31,711 nucleotides of DNA from a virus. This document shows, in pieces, positions 1-31,711 of this stretch (within the stretch, counting starts at the first letter, position 1; every line of letters starts with the position of its first letter). The stretch is taken from IMG/VR virus record IMGVR_UViG_3300007734_000568, positions 1 to 31,711 of that record. The stretch is one strand, 5' to 3'. Position numbers and translations under genes: made by a program. The notes below the pieces were generated by a model. That model searched no databases, had not been told where the DNA came from, and saw only the letters and a program-made list of their open reading frames with translations.

Positions 1-600
1 GTCATAGGATCTCAAGGCTTAACTAGGTGAGACCCGCGAAGCTAAGCCTTCCCTCTCCCATTGTTAAGCTTTGCAACAATCCTCTCGACAGGCTGCCGAT
101 CCCATGCTAGGCTTAGCTCAAGCGGAAGGGAAACCAACCGTATTCACTACATAACAGCTCAGCCATCGGCTGATCTGGCCCAGAACGGGACGTCGCACAA
201 AGTAGCCGAAAGGCGAGAGTGCGAGACGACGGATCATGGCGCCTAGATCTTCTCGACAGGCTGTTGAACTGATCCCCCTGAGGCTAGTAGCCATAGGATT
301 GGTGTGCCCATAACCTTGCGAAAGGCTAAGCCCCAAACCAGCACTAGAATTCTCCCACCCAACCGGTTGATCCTGCGCGATCGACTAAGGCAGGTTTGGA
401 GCTAGTGTCTTGCCCGGAAGGCCCTTGGTTCAACGCTGCAGAAAGTTATCTTTCTACAGTCTAGCTGCGTTATCTATTACCATGATTCAACGCCAGGCAA
501 GCCAGGTTTGTGACCTGTAAGAAGTCCAGGGATTGGTTGTGGGAACGGTAACTCAATACAAACACAATTCTCACCGGGGGTGGTGTGTCCTTTCCTGTCA
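1..600 (+). ncRNA. Candidate large structured noncoding RNA (unclassified)
   Basis: No convincing protein gene is seen here. The stretch is packed with helices: 14-21 with 43-50 (8 bp), 60-65 with 75-80, 110-116 with 326-332 (long range), 159-164 with 168-173, 191-198 with 219-228 capped by a GAAA loop at 208-211, 314-317 with 322-325 closing a GCGA loop, 372-376 with 390-394, 432-436 with 467-471 enclosing a perfect AGAAAG/CTTTCT hairpin (440-455), 503-507 with 513-517, and a bulged 7-bp helix 532-538 with 550-557. Helices 333-339/393-399 and 342-347/402-407 cross, which would be a pseudoknot. The AGTA (201-204) opposite GAGA (215-218) resembles a loop-E module. Size and ornateness recall the phage-borne GOLLD and ROOL RNAs, but I cannot align it to either. 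The strand is assumed from the downstream genes, and the 5' end may lie outside the window. Confidence 0.42.
83..286 (+). repeat. Degenerate duplicated block in the noncoding region
   Basis: The 13-mer TCTCGACAGGCTG occurs at 83-95 and again at 251-263. Each copy is followed by GATCCC (98-103 and 271-276) and then CTAG (107-110 and 284-287), with different spacers. CATAGGAT also occurs twice, at 3-10 and 292-299. The order of shared blocks suggests an old duplicated RNA subdomain rather than chance. Confidence 0.65.
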
Positions 601-887
601 CACAGGCAGGATATCTGTGCACTTCAGCGCTTAGCGAACGCTGGCCACCCGCATTTTTTTACAATTTAATAACATCCATGCTCTGCATGCGCTTTATGCT
701 CTACTTTAGGTGGGGCTTTTTTTTCGGGATTGTATCCTACCGGGGCCATACATTGCTTAGCAGTGTTCTCGGTAGGGTACTTAATCTCAGCTTAATGATC
801 ATTTATGATCACGATGATTCTCTCACTAAACTAACAAGTTTACTGAGGGATTCTCTCCCTCAAAATCACACAAACCAGGTGCTAATC
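601..887 (+). promoter_or_regulatory. Gene-free structured leader before the first small gene
   Basis: This stretch holds strong hairpins and no supported gene. 601-605 pairs with 615-619; 625-629 with 639-643; 677-681 with 685-689. CCACC (645-649) can pair with GGTGG (709-713), placing a stem 3 nt before eight Ts (717-724), a possible terminator of the upstream RNA. The best element is 732-780: an 11-bp stem (732-742 with 770-780, one G-T pair) enclosing a second 6-bp hairpin (751-756 with 760-765). A perfect 7-bp hairpin (844-850 with 856-862) sits 25 nt before the ATG at 888. An open frame does run from 585 into the gene, but its N-terminal part looks non-coding. Confidence 0.45.
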
Positions 888-1199
888 ATGACTGTTGTTG
901 ATCAAGATTTAGCGTTGGAGTTAGAACTCTACGCAGGACATTTCTCCAGTGTACATTTCAATGGTATTGGCCGCACACTAACTAAATTCTGGCGCAAGGG
1001 TTCGTTTGATTATGAACGCGCTTTAGGTTATGTATACCGTAACCTAGTTATTCCAGCGGCTAAGGACTACAAAGCATGCCACGGCTCGCTTAATCAAGCT
1101 TGGCACACTATGTTCCCAATTCCGGAACGTAAATTAGCTGCCGAGAATATACTTAACCATTTTGTGGATGAGTTCAAACTAAACAACTTTTGGAGTTAA
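888..1199 (+). CDS. Conserved-looking phage protein of unknown function (103 aa)
   Basis: The ATG at 888 is preferred over an in-frame start at 585: AGGTG (877-881), which can pair with the 16S anti-Shine-Dalgarno, lies at correct spacing, and the 585-887 stretch is full of RNA-like hairpins. The 103-residue product begins with an acidic segment (VDQDLALELELYAGH) followed by a basic, aromatic centre (GIGRTLTKFWRKG) and ends FKLNNFWS. No signal peptide or membrane segment is visible. I recognise the general look of small cyanophage early proteins but cannot name a function. It heads a run of short genes on the same strand; the next start lies 2 nt after its stop. Confidence 0.75.
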   Translation: MTVVDQDLALELELYAGHFSSVHFNGIGRTLTKFWRKGSFDYERALGYVYRNLVIPAAKDYKACHGSLNQAWHTMFPIPERKLAAENILNHFVDEFKLNNFWS

Positions 1200-7216: not shown

Positions 7217-7455
7217 TGAAGAAAACAATCTACACAATTGCATCCGAAAAAGGTTTTCTTAAAGACATAGAGGAATACACAATGGATATCTTGGAAGCAG
7301 TCACTTTTACAAATGTTGACTACGCTTGCGAACGACTGCTTTCTATAAAGCATGCACTTAAAAATAAGTGCTGGGTTACAACGCAAGAGATCACATTTCC
7401 AAGACCTAAACCAGCTGACATCCGTCGCTTTGACACACTCACCAACCAATCATGA
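7216..7455 (+). CDS. Small protein within the MoxR/VWA cassette (79 aa)
   Basis: The gene starts within the previous stop (TAATG) and overlaps the next start (ATGA), so it is fully coupled on both sides. GGAGGAG lies 11 nt upstream, partly a Shine-Dalgarno. The 79-residue product has a beta-rich N-terminus (KKTIYTIASEKGFLKDI), a central helix with two cysteines and a basic, proline-containing tail. No domain is recognised. Its fixed place between the DUF3150-like gene and the ATPase suggests a small accessory subunit, although phage genomes often host unrelated small genes in such gaps. Confidence 0.66.
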   Translation: MKKTIYTIASEKGFLKDIEEYTMDILEAVTFTNVDYACERLLSIKHALKNKCWVTTQEITFPRPKPADIRRFDTLTNQS

Positions 7456-8636
7456 ACGACTTACTTTTCACAAACCTCCAAAAGTTTCGCGGTTCCTTAA
7501 ACAACTCATTTTTAGAACGTGAAGAAATTATTGATGGCCTCTTGGCTTCTGTAATCACAAAACAGAATACGTTTTTGTTTGGATTACCAGGAACAGGCAA
7601 GTCTGAACTAGTCCGTGCCGTATCAAACGGATTTAAAAACAGTAAATTTTTTGGTTACTTGTTATCGCCCACAACAGATCCTTCAGAACTGTTTGGCCCT
7701 GTGGCAATATCAAAGTTGTTGAAAGACGAATACACAAGGGATGTACAAGGATATTTGCCTAGTGCAAACATCGCATTCCTTGATGAGTTGTTTCGTGGTA
7801 GTTCTGCAGTGCTTAACTCACTGTTAACAGTGTTAAACGAACGCACGTTTAATAACGGCAAAGAACTAATCCACACGCCAATTCAATCTGTCGTTGCTGC
7901 TACAAACTCATTTCCGCAGGAGGAATCGCTTCAAGCATTTTGTGATCGGTTTTTATTTAGACCGACAGTTGAAGCTTTAAAGAAACCAGCCTCCCGTAGA
8001 TTGTTAGATCTATGGGCTTTAGGTTTGAAGAAAAGGCCAAACGTTGAATCAGAACTAACTTACGAAGACTTAATCGAACTACAAGAATCCTTAAGTGAAG
8101 TTAAAGTCACAGATGAGTTTCTAGATAAATTCTCACAGGTCTTTGATCTACTTGCTTCTAGAGGAATAACTATTAGCGACAGGCGTCGCGTTCAGATACT
8201 TAAGTTTATTAGAGGCTGGGCTATTGTGCAAGGAGATGATACAGTGTATGCTGATCATCTACACAAATCATTGGTTCATATTATATATCAGAACGTGGAC
8301 GATATAGGAGTTATAAAAGAAGTATTACAACAAGCAATACCCACGGCTGAAAGAATGATTATTGATATAAAGCGAGCGTTAGGCGGGATATTAAGTGAGT
8401 ATCACAGTATTAATGGCCAAGAATGTAAGGCTGTAAGCGATCTAAATAAACTCGTGAGTAAGTTACGTAAAACTCATAACGATGTGTCGGTCTTAGATCA
8501 GAAACTTTCATCCATTATGGAATCGAGTGAGTATCGTATCTCAGCGACCACGAGACAGGAAGCTACTAAGGTGATCCAAACTTTAGACCAAACCAAACAA
8601 TTGATTGCAAAATCAATCTCGGAGTTATGCAAATGA
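7452..8636 (+). CDS. MoxR/RavA-type AAA+ ATPase (394 aa)
   Basis: Walker A is GLPGTGKS (residues 44-51), Walker B is IAFLDE (107-112) followed by the MoxR-typical LFRGSSAVLNSLLTVLNERTFNNG, and sensor 1 lies in VVAATNSFP (Asn152). CDRF (164-167) occupies the usual arginine-finger region. MoxR ATPases form hexamers that remodel protein complexes and usually pair with a VWA protein encoded next door, as here. The length and helical C-terminal part (lid plus coiled coil, about 270-390) are consistent with RavA-like members. The start overlaps the previous gene by ATGA; the end overlaps the VWA gene. All key ATPase residues are intact. Confidence 0.9.
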   Translation: MNDLLFTNLQKFRGSLNNSFLEREEIIDGLLASVITKQNTFLFGLPGTGKSELVRAVSNGFKNSKFFGYLLSPTTDPSELFGPVAISKLLKDEYTRDVQGYLPSANIAFLDELFRGSSAVLNSLLTVLNERTFNNGKELIHTPIQSVVAATNSFPQEESLQAFCDRFLFRPTVEALKKPASRRLLDLWALGLKKRPNVESELTYEDLIELQESLSEVKVTDEFLDKFSQVFDLLASRGITISDRRRVQILKFIRGWAIVQGDDTVYADHLHKSLVHIIYQNVDDIGVIKEVLQQAIPTAERMIIDIKRALGGILSEYHSINGQECKAVSDLNKLVSKLRKTHNDVSVLDQKLSSIMESSEYRISATTRQEATKVIQTLDQTKQLIAKSISELCK

Positions 8637-10180
8637 ACTTAAAAACAGAGCAACAATTTATTCGACTCATAAACAACGAGCCTCTTGTTATTTCGGTCTC
8701 AGCGCTTTGTGATTTTCTATGGGATGACTTTGTTCGTGATGCACAACCAACAGTTAGATACTTAGTTGATTACTACAACATCTCTCAGATATCACGATTT
8801 GGTAAGGAACTATTTGATCTCTTGTACAACGGTGGTGCGGTTACTCCTTTAATAAGTTTAGATGAAGTTGAAGATTACTTTCGACTCAAGCAAGATGGTC
8901 ACAACCCAGCGCATCCAGCGGGGTATAAACCTGAGAATGCCTTTTGGGTGGGCTTGTTCAATGACGTATGCGAATCCCCGATGTGGCCTAACTTAGCTGT
9001 TTTATCGTGCGGTAATCAATTCAATGCAGGTAACAATGCAGTGAACATAATAAACAAACTAAGCGAACTTATAGAAAAACAAGTAGAAGAAAATGAATTA
9101 CTTGGTCAGGCACTGATTAAAGGAGGAAAGCAGATACAAGAACTGCGGGATAAATTTATGCAAGCTATGCAAGAAGGCAATGAAAAACAAGCGGCTGAAT
9201 TTAGACAACTAGGTAAGGAACTAGGAAAACAAATGGAGAAAACTTTTAGTGATGTGCGATCTCAAATGCAGCCTGCTGTATCAAACGTAATAGATAAAGT
9301 AAACGAAGAAGCAGAGGAGTTAAAGGAAGCACTCGATACGTTAGCAGGTACTAACAAAGGAATCGGCTCCCACAGTGACGATTTAGAAACGAAGAGACAC
9401 TTGGCACAAACACTGAAACAGAACAAACGTTTGAAACAGCTGATTAATAAAATTGGAGCCCTAAGAAAAGCTTGGAATAATAGGAAACGTGCTAAGCAAG
9501 CACAAAGTAATTACAGTGACATTGTGGGGGCTAAGTTCTCGGACGATATTAAGAATATCTTCCCTGTTGAATTAGCTCTAGCTGGAGACACTATAGGACG
9601 GACTTTGTTTGCTCTTAAATATTCACAGAAAACTTTATTAACTAAAGACTACGAAGCAAAGATAAAAGAAATATCTAAAGGGCCCGTTGTTATGTACATA
9701 GACGTAAGCGGATCAATGTCTGGAAGCTCAGAGATATGGAGCAAAGCAATTGCTTATGTAGTTGCTGAAGAATGTTTAGAGCAGAAGCGAGAACTTCAAG
9801 TTCATCTGTTTGATACAGTGATACAAGAAAGCATAATTTTAAAAAGTGATCGAAACAATAACGAAAAACTCTTAAACTTTGTGATGACCTGGTCTACAAG
9901 AGGTGGTACAGCCTTCTCAGCTGTATTAAACCACGCGCTGACTAAGGCTCAGATTGATGCCAAAGCCGACGTTCTACTAATCACGGATGGTGAGTCTGAA
10001 ATATCAGATCCTCTTGTACGCCGTTTAAATGAATTTAAAGACGAAACATGCCTTCAATGGAATACTTTTTGTATAGGTCAAAAAGCTAACGTCCTACATA
10101 AATTTAGTGATGAAGTTTTCTTAGTTAATGTCAACGATGACCCTAAGTCTGTTGAATTATTTCAAACATCTTTAAGGTAG
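8633..10180 (+). CDS. VWA-domain protein, ViaA-like partner of the ATPase (515 aa)
   Basis: The ATG at 8633 overlaps the ATPase stop (ATGA) and has GGAG 8 nt upstream; an ATG 6 nt earlier is too close to it. The N-terminal 150 residues are globular, followed by a long charged helical region (about 150-290, with ELREKF-like heptads and an NKRLKQLINKIGALRKAW segment). The C-terminal VWA domain has an intact MIDAS: DVSGS with Asp357, Ser359 and Ser361, Thr426 in TRGGTAFS, and Asp452 in LLITDGES. Such proteins bind a metal and recruit substrates to MoxR ATPases; RavA-ViaA is the known model. The two almost certainly form one machine. Its target in infection is unknown. Confidence 0.9.
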   Translation: MNLKTEQQFIRLINNEPLVISVSALCDFLWDDFVRDAQPTVRYLVDYYNISQISRFGKELFDLLYNGGAVTPLISLDEVEDYFRLKQDGHNPAHPAGYKPENAFWVGLFNDVCESPMWPNLAVLSCGNQFNAGNNAVNIINKLSELIEKQVEENELLGQALIKGGKQIQELRDKFMQAMQEGNEKQAAEFRQLGKELGKQMEKTFSDVRSQMQPAVSNVIDKVNEEAEELKEALDTLAGTNKGIGSHSDDLETKRHLAQTLKQNKRLKQLINKIGALRKAWNNRKRAKQAQSNYSDIVGAKFSDDIKNIFPVELALAGDTIGRTLFALKYSQKTLLTKDYEAKIKEISKGPVVMYIDVSGSMSGSSEIWSKAIAYVVAEECLEQKRELQVHLFDTVIQESIILKSDRNNNEKLLNFVMTWSTRGGTAFSAVLNHALTKAQIDAKADVLLITDGESEISDPLVRRLNEFKDETCLQWNTFCIGQKANVLHKFSDEVFLVNVNDDPKSVELFQTSLR

Positions 10181-27983: not shown

Positions 27984-30908
27984 TCAACGACCAAACAATA
28001 ATTCAGACAAACCAAACTCGCCTCGGCGGGGGTTAAACCTCTCTCCAGCTAACTCTATGCGTCTTTGCAACTCATTACGGTTTTGTCTACGATTCATCTC
28101 GGCTTTACCTTGAGCAGATAATGGTTTTATTTCAGCTGTTAACGGTGCCGCAGCCATGCGTGGTTTACCTGCAACGTTAGTTCTGGGTGCTGTTCCAATA
28201 AACTGACGCACTTTAGGCACTATACCTTCGCCCGTTTCTTGACGAACAACTTCATTTGCAGCTCTGGCAGCAGCCGACCCAATAAATCCTAAGCCCACGC
28301 CGGGTGCCACTGGTGCTAATACAGGAGTGGATAGAGCCGCAGCAAACGCTGCTCCCGCAGGTAAACTTTCAATAAATTCACGACCCATCTGTCGACCCAT
28401 CGCAGCAGGTCCCTGCTTATACCCTGTCTGAATTGCTTCTGGACTTGGAATTAGATCCGCAGCTCCTGGTAGTAGAGAGGCTGGTGTTTTTTTAATGGCA
28501 CGTCCAAGTTCAAGCGCTCCCGCAGCAGCCCCAGTTACTGGATCAACTGCATAATAAGTCTTGTTACTCGGTAAACTACTTTGGTTGACTTCTGCTTGAC
28601 CCCCACTAAAGCTCAATTGTCCTCGAATTGGTGTCTCAGCAGATTTCAGCTGTAGTGGAATTACTTTTCCTTCTTTATTTATATATGCATATTGGGCTTG
28701 CTCAATACCTTGCACTGGTCCAAAACCGCCACGCTGGTAAGCTACTCCTCTTTTATTTGCTGGTTCTCCAATAACTTCTTGTTGCTTACGAAATGTCGAA
28801 CTGGCGCGTCCTTTTCTTTCGGCAGCCTCCTCTAGATCAAACTCCCGTAATGGATTATTCACTACTAAAGTTCCGGGAGGCATTCCAGCCAACGCATTTT
28901 TAGAAACAAATTCTGTGAATGCTTTAGAAACAGCTGGTGGTAAATCTTTGGCGTCGTAAGTAAATCTATCTTCGTCAGGAGAAAGCGTTTTAAAACTTAT
29001 TGAGGACGTCCCTAAAATAGGATTTTTTGCGAAAAACTTTAAAGCGTTTTCTGAAATATCGCCGCCGGATAACTTAGTAGAGTCAGCTATTGAAGGCAGC
29101 ATAGGCGGAGAATTAGTCATACTTAGTCCATATATTTCACCAATATCATCTATTTTTGCTGGAGTGATTTCATCCGTATCTGGATTGTACCTCACATATA
29201 GTTCCGTAGGGTTATTTACACTTTGGGTATACTTATCGAAAAGCCTGGTCCTAGCTTGAGGCGATAAATCGTCAACGGCTTTTTTAAAAACGCGAGCGCG
29301 GTCGTCAATCCGACTCATTAATTCTCTTGCTTCTGGATCATCCCTCCCCACATATTTACCTCCTCCAATCAAAGGTCTGACAGTGGATGCAGCTTGTGAC
29401 GAAACCTCGCTTAATTTTTCAGCAGCTTCAGGATTTAACTGACCTAAGCGTTCAATAGCTCTTCGCTGACGCTCCGTATTTCCGCTGGTGTAGTCAAACT
29501 CTATTCCAGCTAGTTCATACTGAGGTATCCCACCTTCTTTCATCAAACTGTTATAAATAGCAGCGCGATCTTTTGGATCTGATATTTGTTGAACTGAATC
29601 TATAAAATTTGAATATCTTAAAATTTCTTCTTTGCCTCCCACGGGGGCTTCTCCTTTAGGTGCTCTAGATAATAAAGGAATCATTTCAGGGTATTGTTTT
29701 AACACTCCTGCAAATCGATTGATTGCTTCTTCATCGAAGCTCCGCATCACATCTTCTCTTAACTCAGGTATAACCAACTGTCCTGTTCTGCGAGAACGTT
29801 CTTCTAAGGCGGCAAGTGTATTACGCATTTCTTGCGGAGAATACTCCAATGATCTTCGCATTCGTTCGGCATCATCAGGTGTTCTCCATTGCCGCAGAAA
29901 GTTTAACCTAGTAGGTCCTTCATTAAAGTTTGGTTGATCAACATCCGGCGGTGTGGTAATACCTGTACCAAAAAGTGTTGACCGTTGATTTTCTCCAACT
30001 GCACCACTCCTGATTGCATTAATAATCTCATCACCACGAGGGGATTCTCTAATTGCTGGAAGTACTTGATTGTATTGTTGCTCAAGGCGCTTAAAATTAG
30101 CGTTGCGTACTATTGCATTTAGGTCCCTAACCAAAGTAACTAATCTATTATTATTCGCTACATAATCCTCAAACGAAGCTGGTGGGCGATTTATTATTCC
30201 CGCTGCCTCTGCCACCAAGTTCTCTCGGGGGTCGATTTCATCAACAAAATTTAATCTTTGTTGTGTAACCCCCGGAGAAAAAGGTATATTTAAGGAAGCA
30301 GCCGAACTAGCTACATCACGACTCCTTCTTTGGAAGTCCCTTTGCTGCTGCTCAATGAAGTCAACTTCGTCTCTTAGCTCACGGCTTATTTGATTTACAG
30401 GTTCATATAAATTTGCAATCGAAGGGGCACTAGGTTGCCCACGCCCGATTCGGTTTACCTCGTCAAGGATTTGTCCTCTTTCCCCTTCTTCAAAATCCTC
30501 GTAAATGTCTGAAATAGCAGCATTTCTTTCAAGAGCCGTTCTAATCGCATTGCGTTCATCGGCAGAAGCACGGGAAAACCCTTCATATATACTTTGAGTA
30601 GTTTCAGGTGATACTATGCGGCTATTTAAAAAATCAAGAGCTTGCTGTTGTTGTGCTGCGGCAATGTTTGCGAGCTCAAATTCATTAAAATCTGGATCTA
30701 TATCTTGACCTCGAAACGGAATCGCGTCACGAAAATCCTCTATGTCAGCATCCTGATCTAAATCGCCTGCATTAAGCGCTTCATTAAAAATATATCTTCT
30801 TGCTCTAGTCTGATCATATCTGTTTGGACTTTGCCTTTCCTGTTCAACTTTACCTTGAACCCTTTGCAAATCCTCAAAAGTTACAGGTCTTATAGGTAGG
30901 GGAGACAC
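27984..30908 (-). CDS. Large probable virion or internal protein (974 aa)
   Basis: This is the largest gene of the window (974 aa). It is highly charged and helical in its N-terminal 750 residues (many Arg/Glu/Gln runs) and has no recognised enzyme motif. Near residues 848-888 is a long, mostly nonpolar stretch (LPAGAAFAAALSTPVLAPVAPGVGLGFIGSAAA) that could insert in a membrane. Long helical proteins with such a segment fit phage internal or ejected virion proteins, but this is inference. The start is GTG (30906-30908), with a candidate extended -10 13-30 nt upstream. It is followed by the AT-rich inverted-repeat region before the HNH gene. Confidence 0.78.
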   Translation of the reverse strand: MSPLPIRPVTFEDLQRVQGKVEQERQSPNRYDQTRARRYIFNEALNAGDLDQDADIEDFRDAIPFRGQDIDPDFNEFELANIAAAQQQQALDFLNSRIVSPETTQSIYEGFSRASADERNAIRTALERNAAISDIYEDFEEGERGQILDEVNRIGRGQPSAPSIANLYEPVNQISRELRDEVDFIEQQQRDFQRRSRDVASSAASLNIPFSPGVTQQRLNFVDEIDPRENLVAEAAGIINRPPASFEDYVANNNRLVTLVRDLNAIVRNANFKRLEQQYNQVLPAIRESPRGDEIINAIRSGAVGENQRSTLFGTGITTPPDVDQPNFNEGPTRLNFLRQWRTPDDAERMRRSLEYSPQEMRNTLAALEERSRRTGQLVIPELREDVMRSFDEEAINRFAGVLKQYPEMIPLLSRAPKGEAPVGGKEEILRYSNFIDSVQQISDPKDRAAIYNSLMKEGGIPQYELAGIEFDYTSGNTERQRRAIERLGQLNPEAAEKLSEVSSQAASTVRPLIGGGKYVGRDDPEARELMSRIDDRARVFKKAVDDLSPQARTRLFDKYTQSVNNPTELYVRYNPDTDEITPAKIDDIGEIYGLSMTNSPPMLPSIADSTKLSGGDISENALKFFAKNPILGTSSISFKTLSPDEDRFTYDAKDLPPAVSKAFTEFVSKNALAGMPPGTLVVNNPLREFDLEEAAERKGRASSTFRKQQEVIGEPANKRGVAYQRGGFGPVQGIEQAQYAYINKEGKVIPLQLKSAETPIRGQLSFSGGQAEVNQSSLPSNKTYYAVDPVTGAAAGALELGRAIKKTPASLLPGAADLIPSPEAIQTGYKQGPAAMGRQMGREFIESLPAGAAFAAALSTPVLAPVAPGVGLGFIGSAAARAANEVVRQETGEGIVPKVRQFIGTAPRTNVAGKPRMAAAPLTAEIKPLSAQGKAEMNRRQNRNELQRRIELAGERFNPRRGEFGLSELLFGR

Positions 30909-30920
30909 GAATATCGTTAC

Positions 30921-30960
30921 GCTAACTAAATATTAGCAGTAATTGCCGGTCGGTTAACCG
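30921..30960 (-). promoter_or_regulatory. Extended -10 promoter with upstream palindrome
   Basis: On the minus strand TGCTAATAT (plus 30930-30938) lies within a GCTAA/TTAGC inverted repeat (30921-30937), 13 nt from the GTG of the large gene. Immediately upstream is the 10-nt palindrome CGGTTAACCG (30951-30960), centred about -32 from the expected start. The arrangement parallels that before the HNH gene. Confidence 0.48.
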
Positions 30961-31017
30961 CACTTGCTTTTTTGACCCTGCTAGCTCTACTGTGCTTCTG
31001 CATTACTTTTTAATCAC

Positions 31018-31389
31018 ATGAACAACTCCATGCTCACCATTCAACTTTATAGATTTGCAGGAACCTGGGCTTTTACAGACGAAGCTCGTAAACTGACACA
31101 CGAACCTTTTGTACTAGGCATCCCTGAAATTATTGACAAAGTTTTAAAAGATAATGATATTGTCTCAGATCAACCTAAAATTTTATTTTCAGCTAAACCC
31201 TTTCCTAAACATCAAGGCTATCTTCATTATAAAAAATTTGAAGATGGCGGGGTTTGGTATACCTTGTTTTCCACGGCTAACAAGGAAGAAAAGTATGTAA
31301 ACGAAAATTTGACTGGTTGGCTTTGTCCTGCAACTTTAAAATACTTTCCCGTACATCCCGAGTATATCTATTTTAAACTCGATAAATAG
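31018..31389 (+). CDS. DUF6717-like protein (123 aa)
   Basis: The 123-residue protein reads LYRFAGTWAFTDEARKLTHEPFVLGIPEIIDKVL ... ILFSAKPFPKHQGYLHYKKFEDGGVWYTLFS ... LTGWLCPATLKYFPVHPEYIYFK. This order (LYRFxGxWxFxD, EPFVxGxxEIID, FSxxPFP, GxWYT, GWLCPAxLxYF) matches what I recall as DUF6717, a small family with no known function. It lies on the + strand, diverging from the large virion gene. A second ATG occurs at residue 5. There is no clear Shine-Dalgarno. Confidence 0.7.
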   Translation: MNNSMLTIQLYRFAGTWAFTDEARKLTHEPFVLGIPEIIDKVLKDNDIVSDQPKILFSAKPFPKHQGYLHYKKFEDGGVWYTLFSTANKEEKYVNENLTGWLCPATLKYFPVHPEYIYFKLDK

Positions 31390-31422
31390 CCCGTAGTGGT
31401 TTTAACTACTTAGTGTTCTTGA

Positions 31423-31629
31423 TTACTGGGTTTCTTTAAAATCCACGAGGTTTTTACCTGCAAGATAACTATGAATACGCTCAGCAAAAAGTGCATACGG
31501 AGCTTCCCCTGTTTCTAGTGCGGACGTAACAGCAACGCGCCACATTATTTCTTGCCTTTCAAGATCAGGTAACGGTTTTAATAAATTGTCCTTGTTCTCT
31601 ACAGAATCAGGTGGAATTAATGGCGTCAT
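31423..31629 (-). CDS. Small hypothetical protein (68 aa)
   Basis: The product is 68 residues: a polar, proline-containing start (MTPLIPPDSVENKDNLLKPLP) and a helix (QEIMWRVAVTSALETGEAPYALFAERIHSYL). No domain is recognised. It lies 4 nt downstream (minus-strand order) of the partial gene at the window end, so the two probably share a transcript. It converges on the DUF6717-like gene across a short gap with a GTAGT/ACTAC hairpin. Confidence 0.6.
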   Translation of the reverse strand: MTPLIPPDSVENKDNLLKPLPDLERQEIMWRVAVTSALETGEAPYALFAERIHSYLAGKNLVDFKETQ

Positions 31630-31633
31630 GTTA

Positions 31634-31711
31634 CTAAATCAGATCCTTACAAGGAAGCAGTGTTTTCTGATCAAGAAGCTTTTTAGCTTCCTGGAAAACC
31701 AAATCTAGTTC
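31634..31711 (-). CDS. 3' end of a gene extending beyond the window (25 aa visible)
   Basis: The minus strand is open from the window edge to a TAG at 31634-31636. The visible residues (ELDLVFQEAKKLLDQKTLLPCKDLI) look like the C-terminal helix of a protein. The following gene starts 4 nt after its stop. Identity cannot be told from this fragment. Confidence 0.5.
   Translation of the reverse strand, partial: ELDLVFQEAKKLLDQKTLLPCKDLI

Follow-up and report, generated by a model that had tools for sequence, protein, structure and literature searches.

What is encoded at the left end of this phage contig, where a long stretch appears to carry no gene? The window analysed here is the whole of IMG/VR virus record IMGVR_UViG_3300007734_000568 (31,711 nt, positions 1–31,711). 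A sequence-only reading had proposed an ornate structured RNA at its left end, either a relative of GOLLD and ROOL or a member of a new class. The locus raises the questions of whether such an RNA exists, whether it works as a free molecule and whether it belongs to a known family.

A gene-free stretch at the contig end

The 31,711-base record has no end repeats. The window virus is likely a cyanophage, since its DNA polymerase is nearest to those of the Pseudanabaena phages PA-SR01 and Pam2 (28% identity). Of the window proteins, 20 were tried, and none was recognisable as a head or tail protein; relatives of the virus are up to 84–87 kb long. Elsewhere in the window (7452–10180) a MoxR-type AAA ATPase (bpMoxR domain) adjoins a von Willebrand A-domain protein, here in a phage.

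The view that the left end lacks a gene was borne out: nothing with homologues is coded in positions 1–887, and the first conserved ORF begins at 888 (Table 1). Substitutions in the RNA region have no codon phase (p 0.76–0.93) and 1–2 base indels are many; the adjacent genes, in the same substitution test, have a strong codon phase. The protein-coding substitution pattern that would have spoken against an RNA was thus looked for and is absent. Small ORFs on either strand within 1–660 were ruled out as genes because they have no codon phase and contain frame-breaking indels. Covariation without a protein-coding pattern, the general mark of a structured non-coding RNA, is what we found at this locus, and the region is almost certainly a structured RNA gene.

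Positions 1 to ∼660 of the window, perhaps extending to the terminator at 724, are the 3′ part of this RNA on the + strand. Alignment with the related locus L018 places the promoter and roughly the first 100–200 nt off the contig; the complete RNA is non-coding and roughly 0.75–0.9 kb in size.

Table 1. Features of the RNA locus in the window, with the evidence on which each assignment is based
Feature	Positions	Strand	Evidence
Large structured non-coding RNA, 3′ part	1..660	+	Homologues L018, L045, L034, L017, L022, L019; consensus-fold z −9.3; codon phase absent
Hairpin 14–21/43–50, loop with AACTAGGTGAG	14..50	+	Hairpin homology to L043/L048/L049 inferred
Hairpin arm with GAAA tetraloop 208–211 and loop-E-like strands	191..228	+	Changed stems in relatives, by eye
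Core domain, closing stem about 290–294/425–429	285..431	+	Covariance model and pair counts
Core arms 296–302/333–339 with 314–317/322–325	285..431	+	
Core arm 341–347/402–408 with hairpin ending at 372/379; hairpin 412–414/420–422	285..431	+	
3′ terminal domain, stem 578–583/645–650 around two or three hairpins	574..652	+	Relatives' outline alike, sequence differs (by eye)
Intrinsic-terminator-like hairpin, then eight T	698..724	+	z −3.7
Spacer before early operon: TGATCATTTATGATCA-type repeat, inverted repeat with GAGGGA	789..870	+	Same place in all relatives
First conserved protein-coding gene 3′ of RNA, 103 aa (anchor)	888..1199	+	Strong codon phase

Folding, covariation and strand

Single-sequence folding of the window gave z values of −3.2 and −4.75 against shuffles, but one coding control from the same phage reached −3.85, so that such values prove little and the comparative evidence is decisive. 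The consensus fold of the window's group (Table 1) was scored against column-shuffled alignments; two other sets gave −7.0 and −8.6 and an eight-sequence set −11.1, compared with −1.5, −0.3 and −0.7 for three coding control alignments of similar divergence, all these z values being generous because column shuffling loses dinucleotides, a weakness that the coding controls have as well. Consensus folding of the − strand also scores well. Comparative folding, the covariation found across homologous loci (a check that the earlier reading had called for) and the absent codon phase together uphold a large structured RNA at the left end.

A covariance model trained on L018, L022, L017 and L034, with the window left out, recovered window positions 285–431 on the + strand with 131 bits (E 1.8e-28). 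On the alignment of that model, which is fitted to the structure, 95.7% of cells are paired and both-side changes occur in 18 of 47 pairs, a result reached by 0 of 500 shuffles. For the four core helices (296–302/333–339, 314–317/322–325, 341–347/402–408 and 369–372/379–382) the figures are 96.4% of cells paired and both-side changes in 11 of 22 pairs, again reached by 0 of 500 shuffles. By energy the core alone is no better than shuffles (z −0.4); its support is covariation.

The individual contacts proposed from the sequence fared unevenly. In the supposed pseudoknot, helix 342–347/402–407 is kept (97% of cells paired, with both-side changes), but the other arm, 333–339/393–399, has 68.6% of cells paired, equal to shuffles at best. 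Positions 333–339 pair instead with 296–302, with both-side changes, and the pseudoknot therefore falls. A long-range helix 110–116/326–332 is not kept either: in relatives an altered 5′ strand faces an unaltered CTAAGCC. Where a GNRA loop GCGA had been read at 318–321, the stem 314–317/322–325 is strongly supported, with four different stems among relatives, but the GNRA type of the loop is unconserved, as several relatives have UCGC. The hairpin 205–207/212–214 with GAAA at 208–211 persists in relatives, judged by eye, although their stems and loops differ. At GGAA (416–419) there is a hairpin, but its loop has five bases, CGGAA or CGAGA; the stem 412–414/420–422 never varies, and covariation is thus uninformative there. 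A loop-E-like internal loop at 201–204/215–218 is plausible: L018 and L045 retain its strands, whereas L017 lacks part of them. A pairing of a loop CCTGCG with CGCAGG in the 3′ domain, noticed by eye, was discarded, as it fails in the window and in L045. Positions 363–376 of the window, CCGGTTGATCCTGC, resemble the 5′ terminus of 16S rRNA from archaea; the resemblance is likely due to chance, because the segment lies in a covarying hairpin, its sequence differs in relatives and an Rfam rRNA match is absent.

The first conserved motif, CCTRGACAAY, could be placed in 16 loci; 13 of these have a −35-like TTGAC box 58–73 nt before it, and −10-like hexamers such as CATACT or CATGCT follow 3′ of the box at promoter spacing. 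The two would make up a promoter-like site directly 5′ of the RNA on the + strand, which points to this strand and to the likely 5′ end. The fold of sequence set D has 133 G.U pairs vs 35 A.C cells on the + strand and 88 vs 36 on the − strand, counts that moderately favour the + strand. At the other end, the 3′ domain of the window stops at about 652, and the hairpin at 698–724 is a possible 3′ end of the transcript. No sigma-70 site scoring 9 of 12 was found between the RNA and the operon in the window; the RNA may therefore be co-transcribed with the operon. The repeats at 789–870 are a likely regulatory site for the early operon.

Relatives, sub-types and genomic setting

With the ORF downstream of the RNA as anchor, 14 viral loci were collected, five of which are clear homologues of the window sequence; L018 matches the window at 70% over 75–610, and L017, L019, L021 and L022 match it at about 71% over 268–453. 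A diverged sub-type occupies the same place in L002, L004, L007 and L010. A search with a pattern of the core added L034. The pattern AAAAAAAAGN{4,9}ATTGCGGGCAG, describing an element upstream of the RNA, was found in 24 viral contigs and added L042–L057, among which L046 and L055 end before the RNA could show. A pattern of the 3′ hairpin matched 20 viral stretches; its new matches, L058–L065, are the same locus or close matches to known members. The RNA or part of it is thus present in about 30 distinct IMG/VR phage contigs, at one conserved place.

Sub-types have blocks in common. The 5′ part of L051 is shared with the window's group (65–71%) and another of its blocks with L043 (80%); L043 and L056 have a common block (72%), and L056 and L004 have 624 nt in common (69%). 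This sharing looks like modular exchange. Model R1, a covariance model of the window's core, had no core match among the other sub-types; the core is therefore a domain of one sub-type only, and shared blocks and synteny are what ties the others to the window. The motif AACTAGGTGAG is common to the window, L043, L048 and L049, within hairpin loops on differing stems.

Searches of 50,697 records of isolated phages returned nothing relevant for window 1–900, the RNA region of L004, the upstream element, the 315 aa ORF of L004 or the 103 aa ORF, and two RNA patterns had zero matches in 84,980 prokaryote genomes; both results hold for the sensitivity of the searches. Given the absence of a match among the isolated phages, the family would be invisible unless metagenomes are used.

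In relatives, a leftward gene of ∼980 aa is followed by a rightward gene of ∼115 aa, the upstream element, the promoter-like site, the RNA and the early genes, with a divergent tRNA-Met between the ∼115 aa gene and the element in some of them. This tRNA-Met adjoins the locus in L017, L018, L019, L021, L022 and L045; the window itself has no tRNA. The upstream element (∼110 nt; L018 1507–1640) contains an eight-A tract and ATTGCGGGCAG, which is repeated in some phages (L048, L049) in an iteron-like manner, and is a possible origin or master control site. Many relatives, among them L018 (about 1655–1760), L022, L042–L045 and L056, have a long alternating CG/TG tract, Z-DNA-like, that separates the element from the promoter of the RNA.

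The genes at the right end of the window (974 aa, 27984–30908; 123 aa, 31018–31389) are homologues of the genes upstream of the RNA in relatives. Both window ends therefore flank one locus, inside which the contig broke. With these genes in 27984–31711 and the RNA in 1–660, the two ends of the 31.7 kb contig might be separated by just a short gap. Other contigs, too, start inside or just after the RNA (L010, L014, L015, L016 and L020, beside the window). Such starts are perhaps caused by RNAs nearly identical between strains with differing flanks: in L002 and L007 the RNA is almost identical and the adjacent ORFs are not.

Known RNA families and the nature of the RNA

At the Rfam gathering score, the window and 27 related loci yielded tRNAs only, and cmscan of the window, L018 and L004 at E ≤ 10 produced no GOLLD, ROOL, HEARO or group I/II intron. 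A search of ten whole records, the window's among them, with the GOLLD model RF02032 (gathering score 150 bits) at E ≤ 10 placed no GOLLD over the RNA, and no GOLLD-bearing control came over the cut-off. Between the two options of the earlier reading, a new class is consequently the better one, the Rfam profiles being without a match. A search of literature mostly outside the subscription journals found no description of such an RNA.

Among the known families there is nevertheless a likeness to GOLLD: both RNAs are large, ornate and phage-encoded, with conserved and variable domains, and the present one, like phage- or prophage-encoded GOLLD, lies near tRNA genes. The GOLLD RNA env-38 was originally discovered 3′ of tRNA-Met, and the domains of GOLLD are partly conserved and partly variable (PMC12286853). 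Here, in contrast, the tRNA-Met, if present, is divergent from the RNA, the place of the RNA is fixed, next to a divergent control region, and a covariance-model match to GOLLD is lacking. ROOL is also a large phage RNA of similar length, often near tRNA islands (env-120 has 659 nt), and GOLLD and ROOL both assemble RNA-only cages (PMC12286853); the ROOL model, however, does not match our RNA. Group I/II introns and HEARO resemble it as large structured RNAs in mobile DNA, but none of their models matched, and the RNA lies between genes whereas an intron is positioned inside one.

The RNA is probably a large structured phage RNA that stands alone, is of the same kind as GOLLD and ROOL and forms a new family beyond those already known. 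We consider it quite likely that it acts mainly as a free RNA rather than as a leader. An unlikely alternative is that the early operon has a structured 5′ leader of great length here, serving as attenuator, switch or mRNA-stabilising element. The RNA sits where a leftward module meets the rightward early operon, always ahead of the rightward early genes, and no strong promoter was found between it and the operon in the window, as a leader would have it. The terminator-like hairpin with its run of T argues the other way, as does the first gene 3′ of the RNA, which differs between sub-types and so counts against a leader of one gene; the size of the RNA is also far above that of usual leaders.

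It is less probable still that the locus acts mainly as DNA, as the site where replication starts or packaging occurs, the strand fold being that of DNA or of a primer transcript. Consistent with such a role are the upstream A-tract with repeated ATTGCGGGCAG in the 24 contigs, the divergent gene modules on the two flanks and a weak GC-skew change that goes with gene orientation. The repeats, however, are upstream of the structured part and not inside it, + strand covariation keeps G.U over A.C, and the RNA has a promoter-like box 5′ of it. Least probable of all is that the RNA belongs to GOLLD itself and has diverged. Its similar length, phage context, adjoining tRNA-Met at several loci and domains that are in part conserved and in part variable (as in PMC12286853) would suit that origin, and against it stand the ten whole records and the cmscan of the window, L018 and L004, without a match even at E ≤ 10.

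For the stand-alone RNA that we favour, a course of events can be outlined. It would be transcribed during infection from the divergent control region of the phage by its own promoter, and its fold would make it stable. GOLLD is a homo-oligomeric RNA cage, a 14-mer, and ROOL an RNA-only octameric cage of high abundance. By analogy with these two, our RNA may work as a structural RNA, whether by scaffolding, by sequestration in a particle or as a homo-oligomeric cage; a scaffold or oligomer function is a possibility that we put forward with some reserve. Somewhat more tentative is the full proposal of a new giant ornate phage RNA family, modular and tied to a divergent control region, whose product might be an RNA particle in infection, with an origin independent of GOLLD and ROOL.

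For asking what the GOLLD and ROOL cages are for, another family to which no profile links them would supply a new comparative set. With a family that stays at a fixed place across related phages while some of its domains are conserved and others exchanged, one can ask whether cage-building arose repeatedly.
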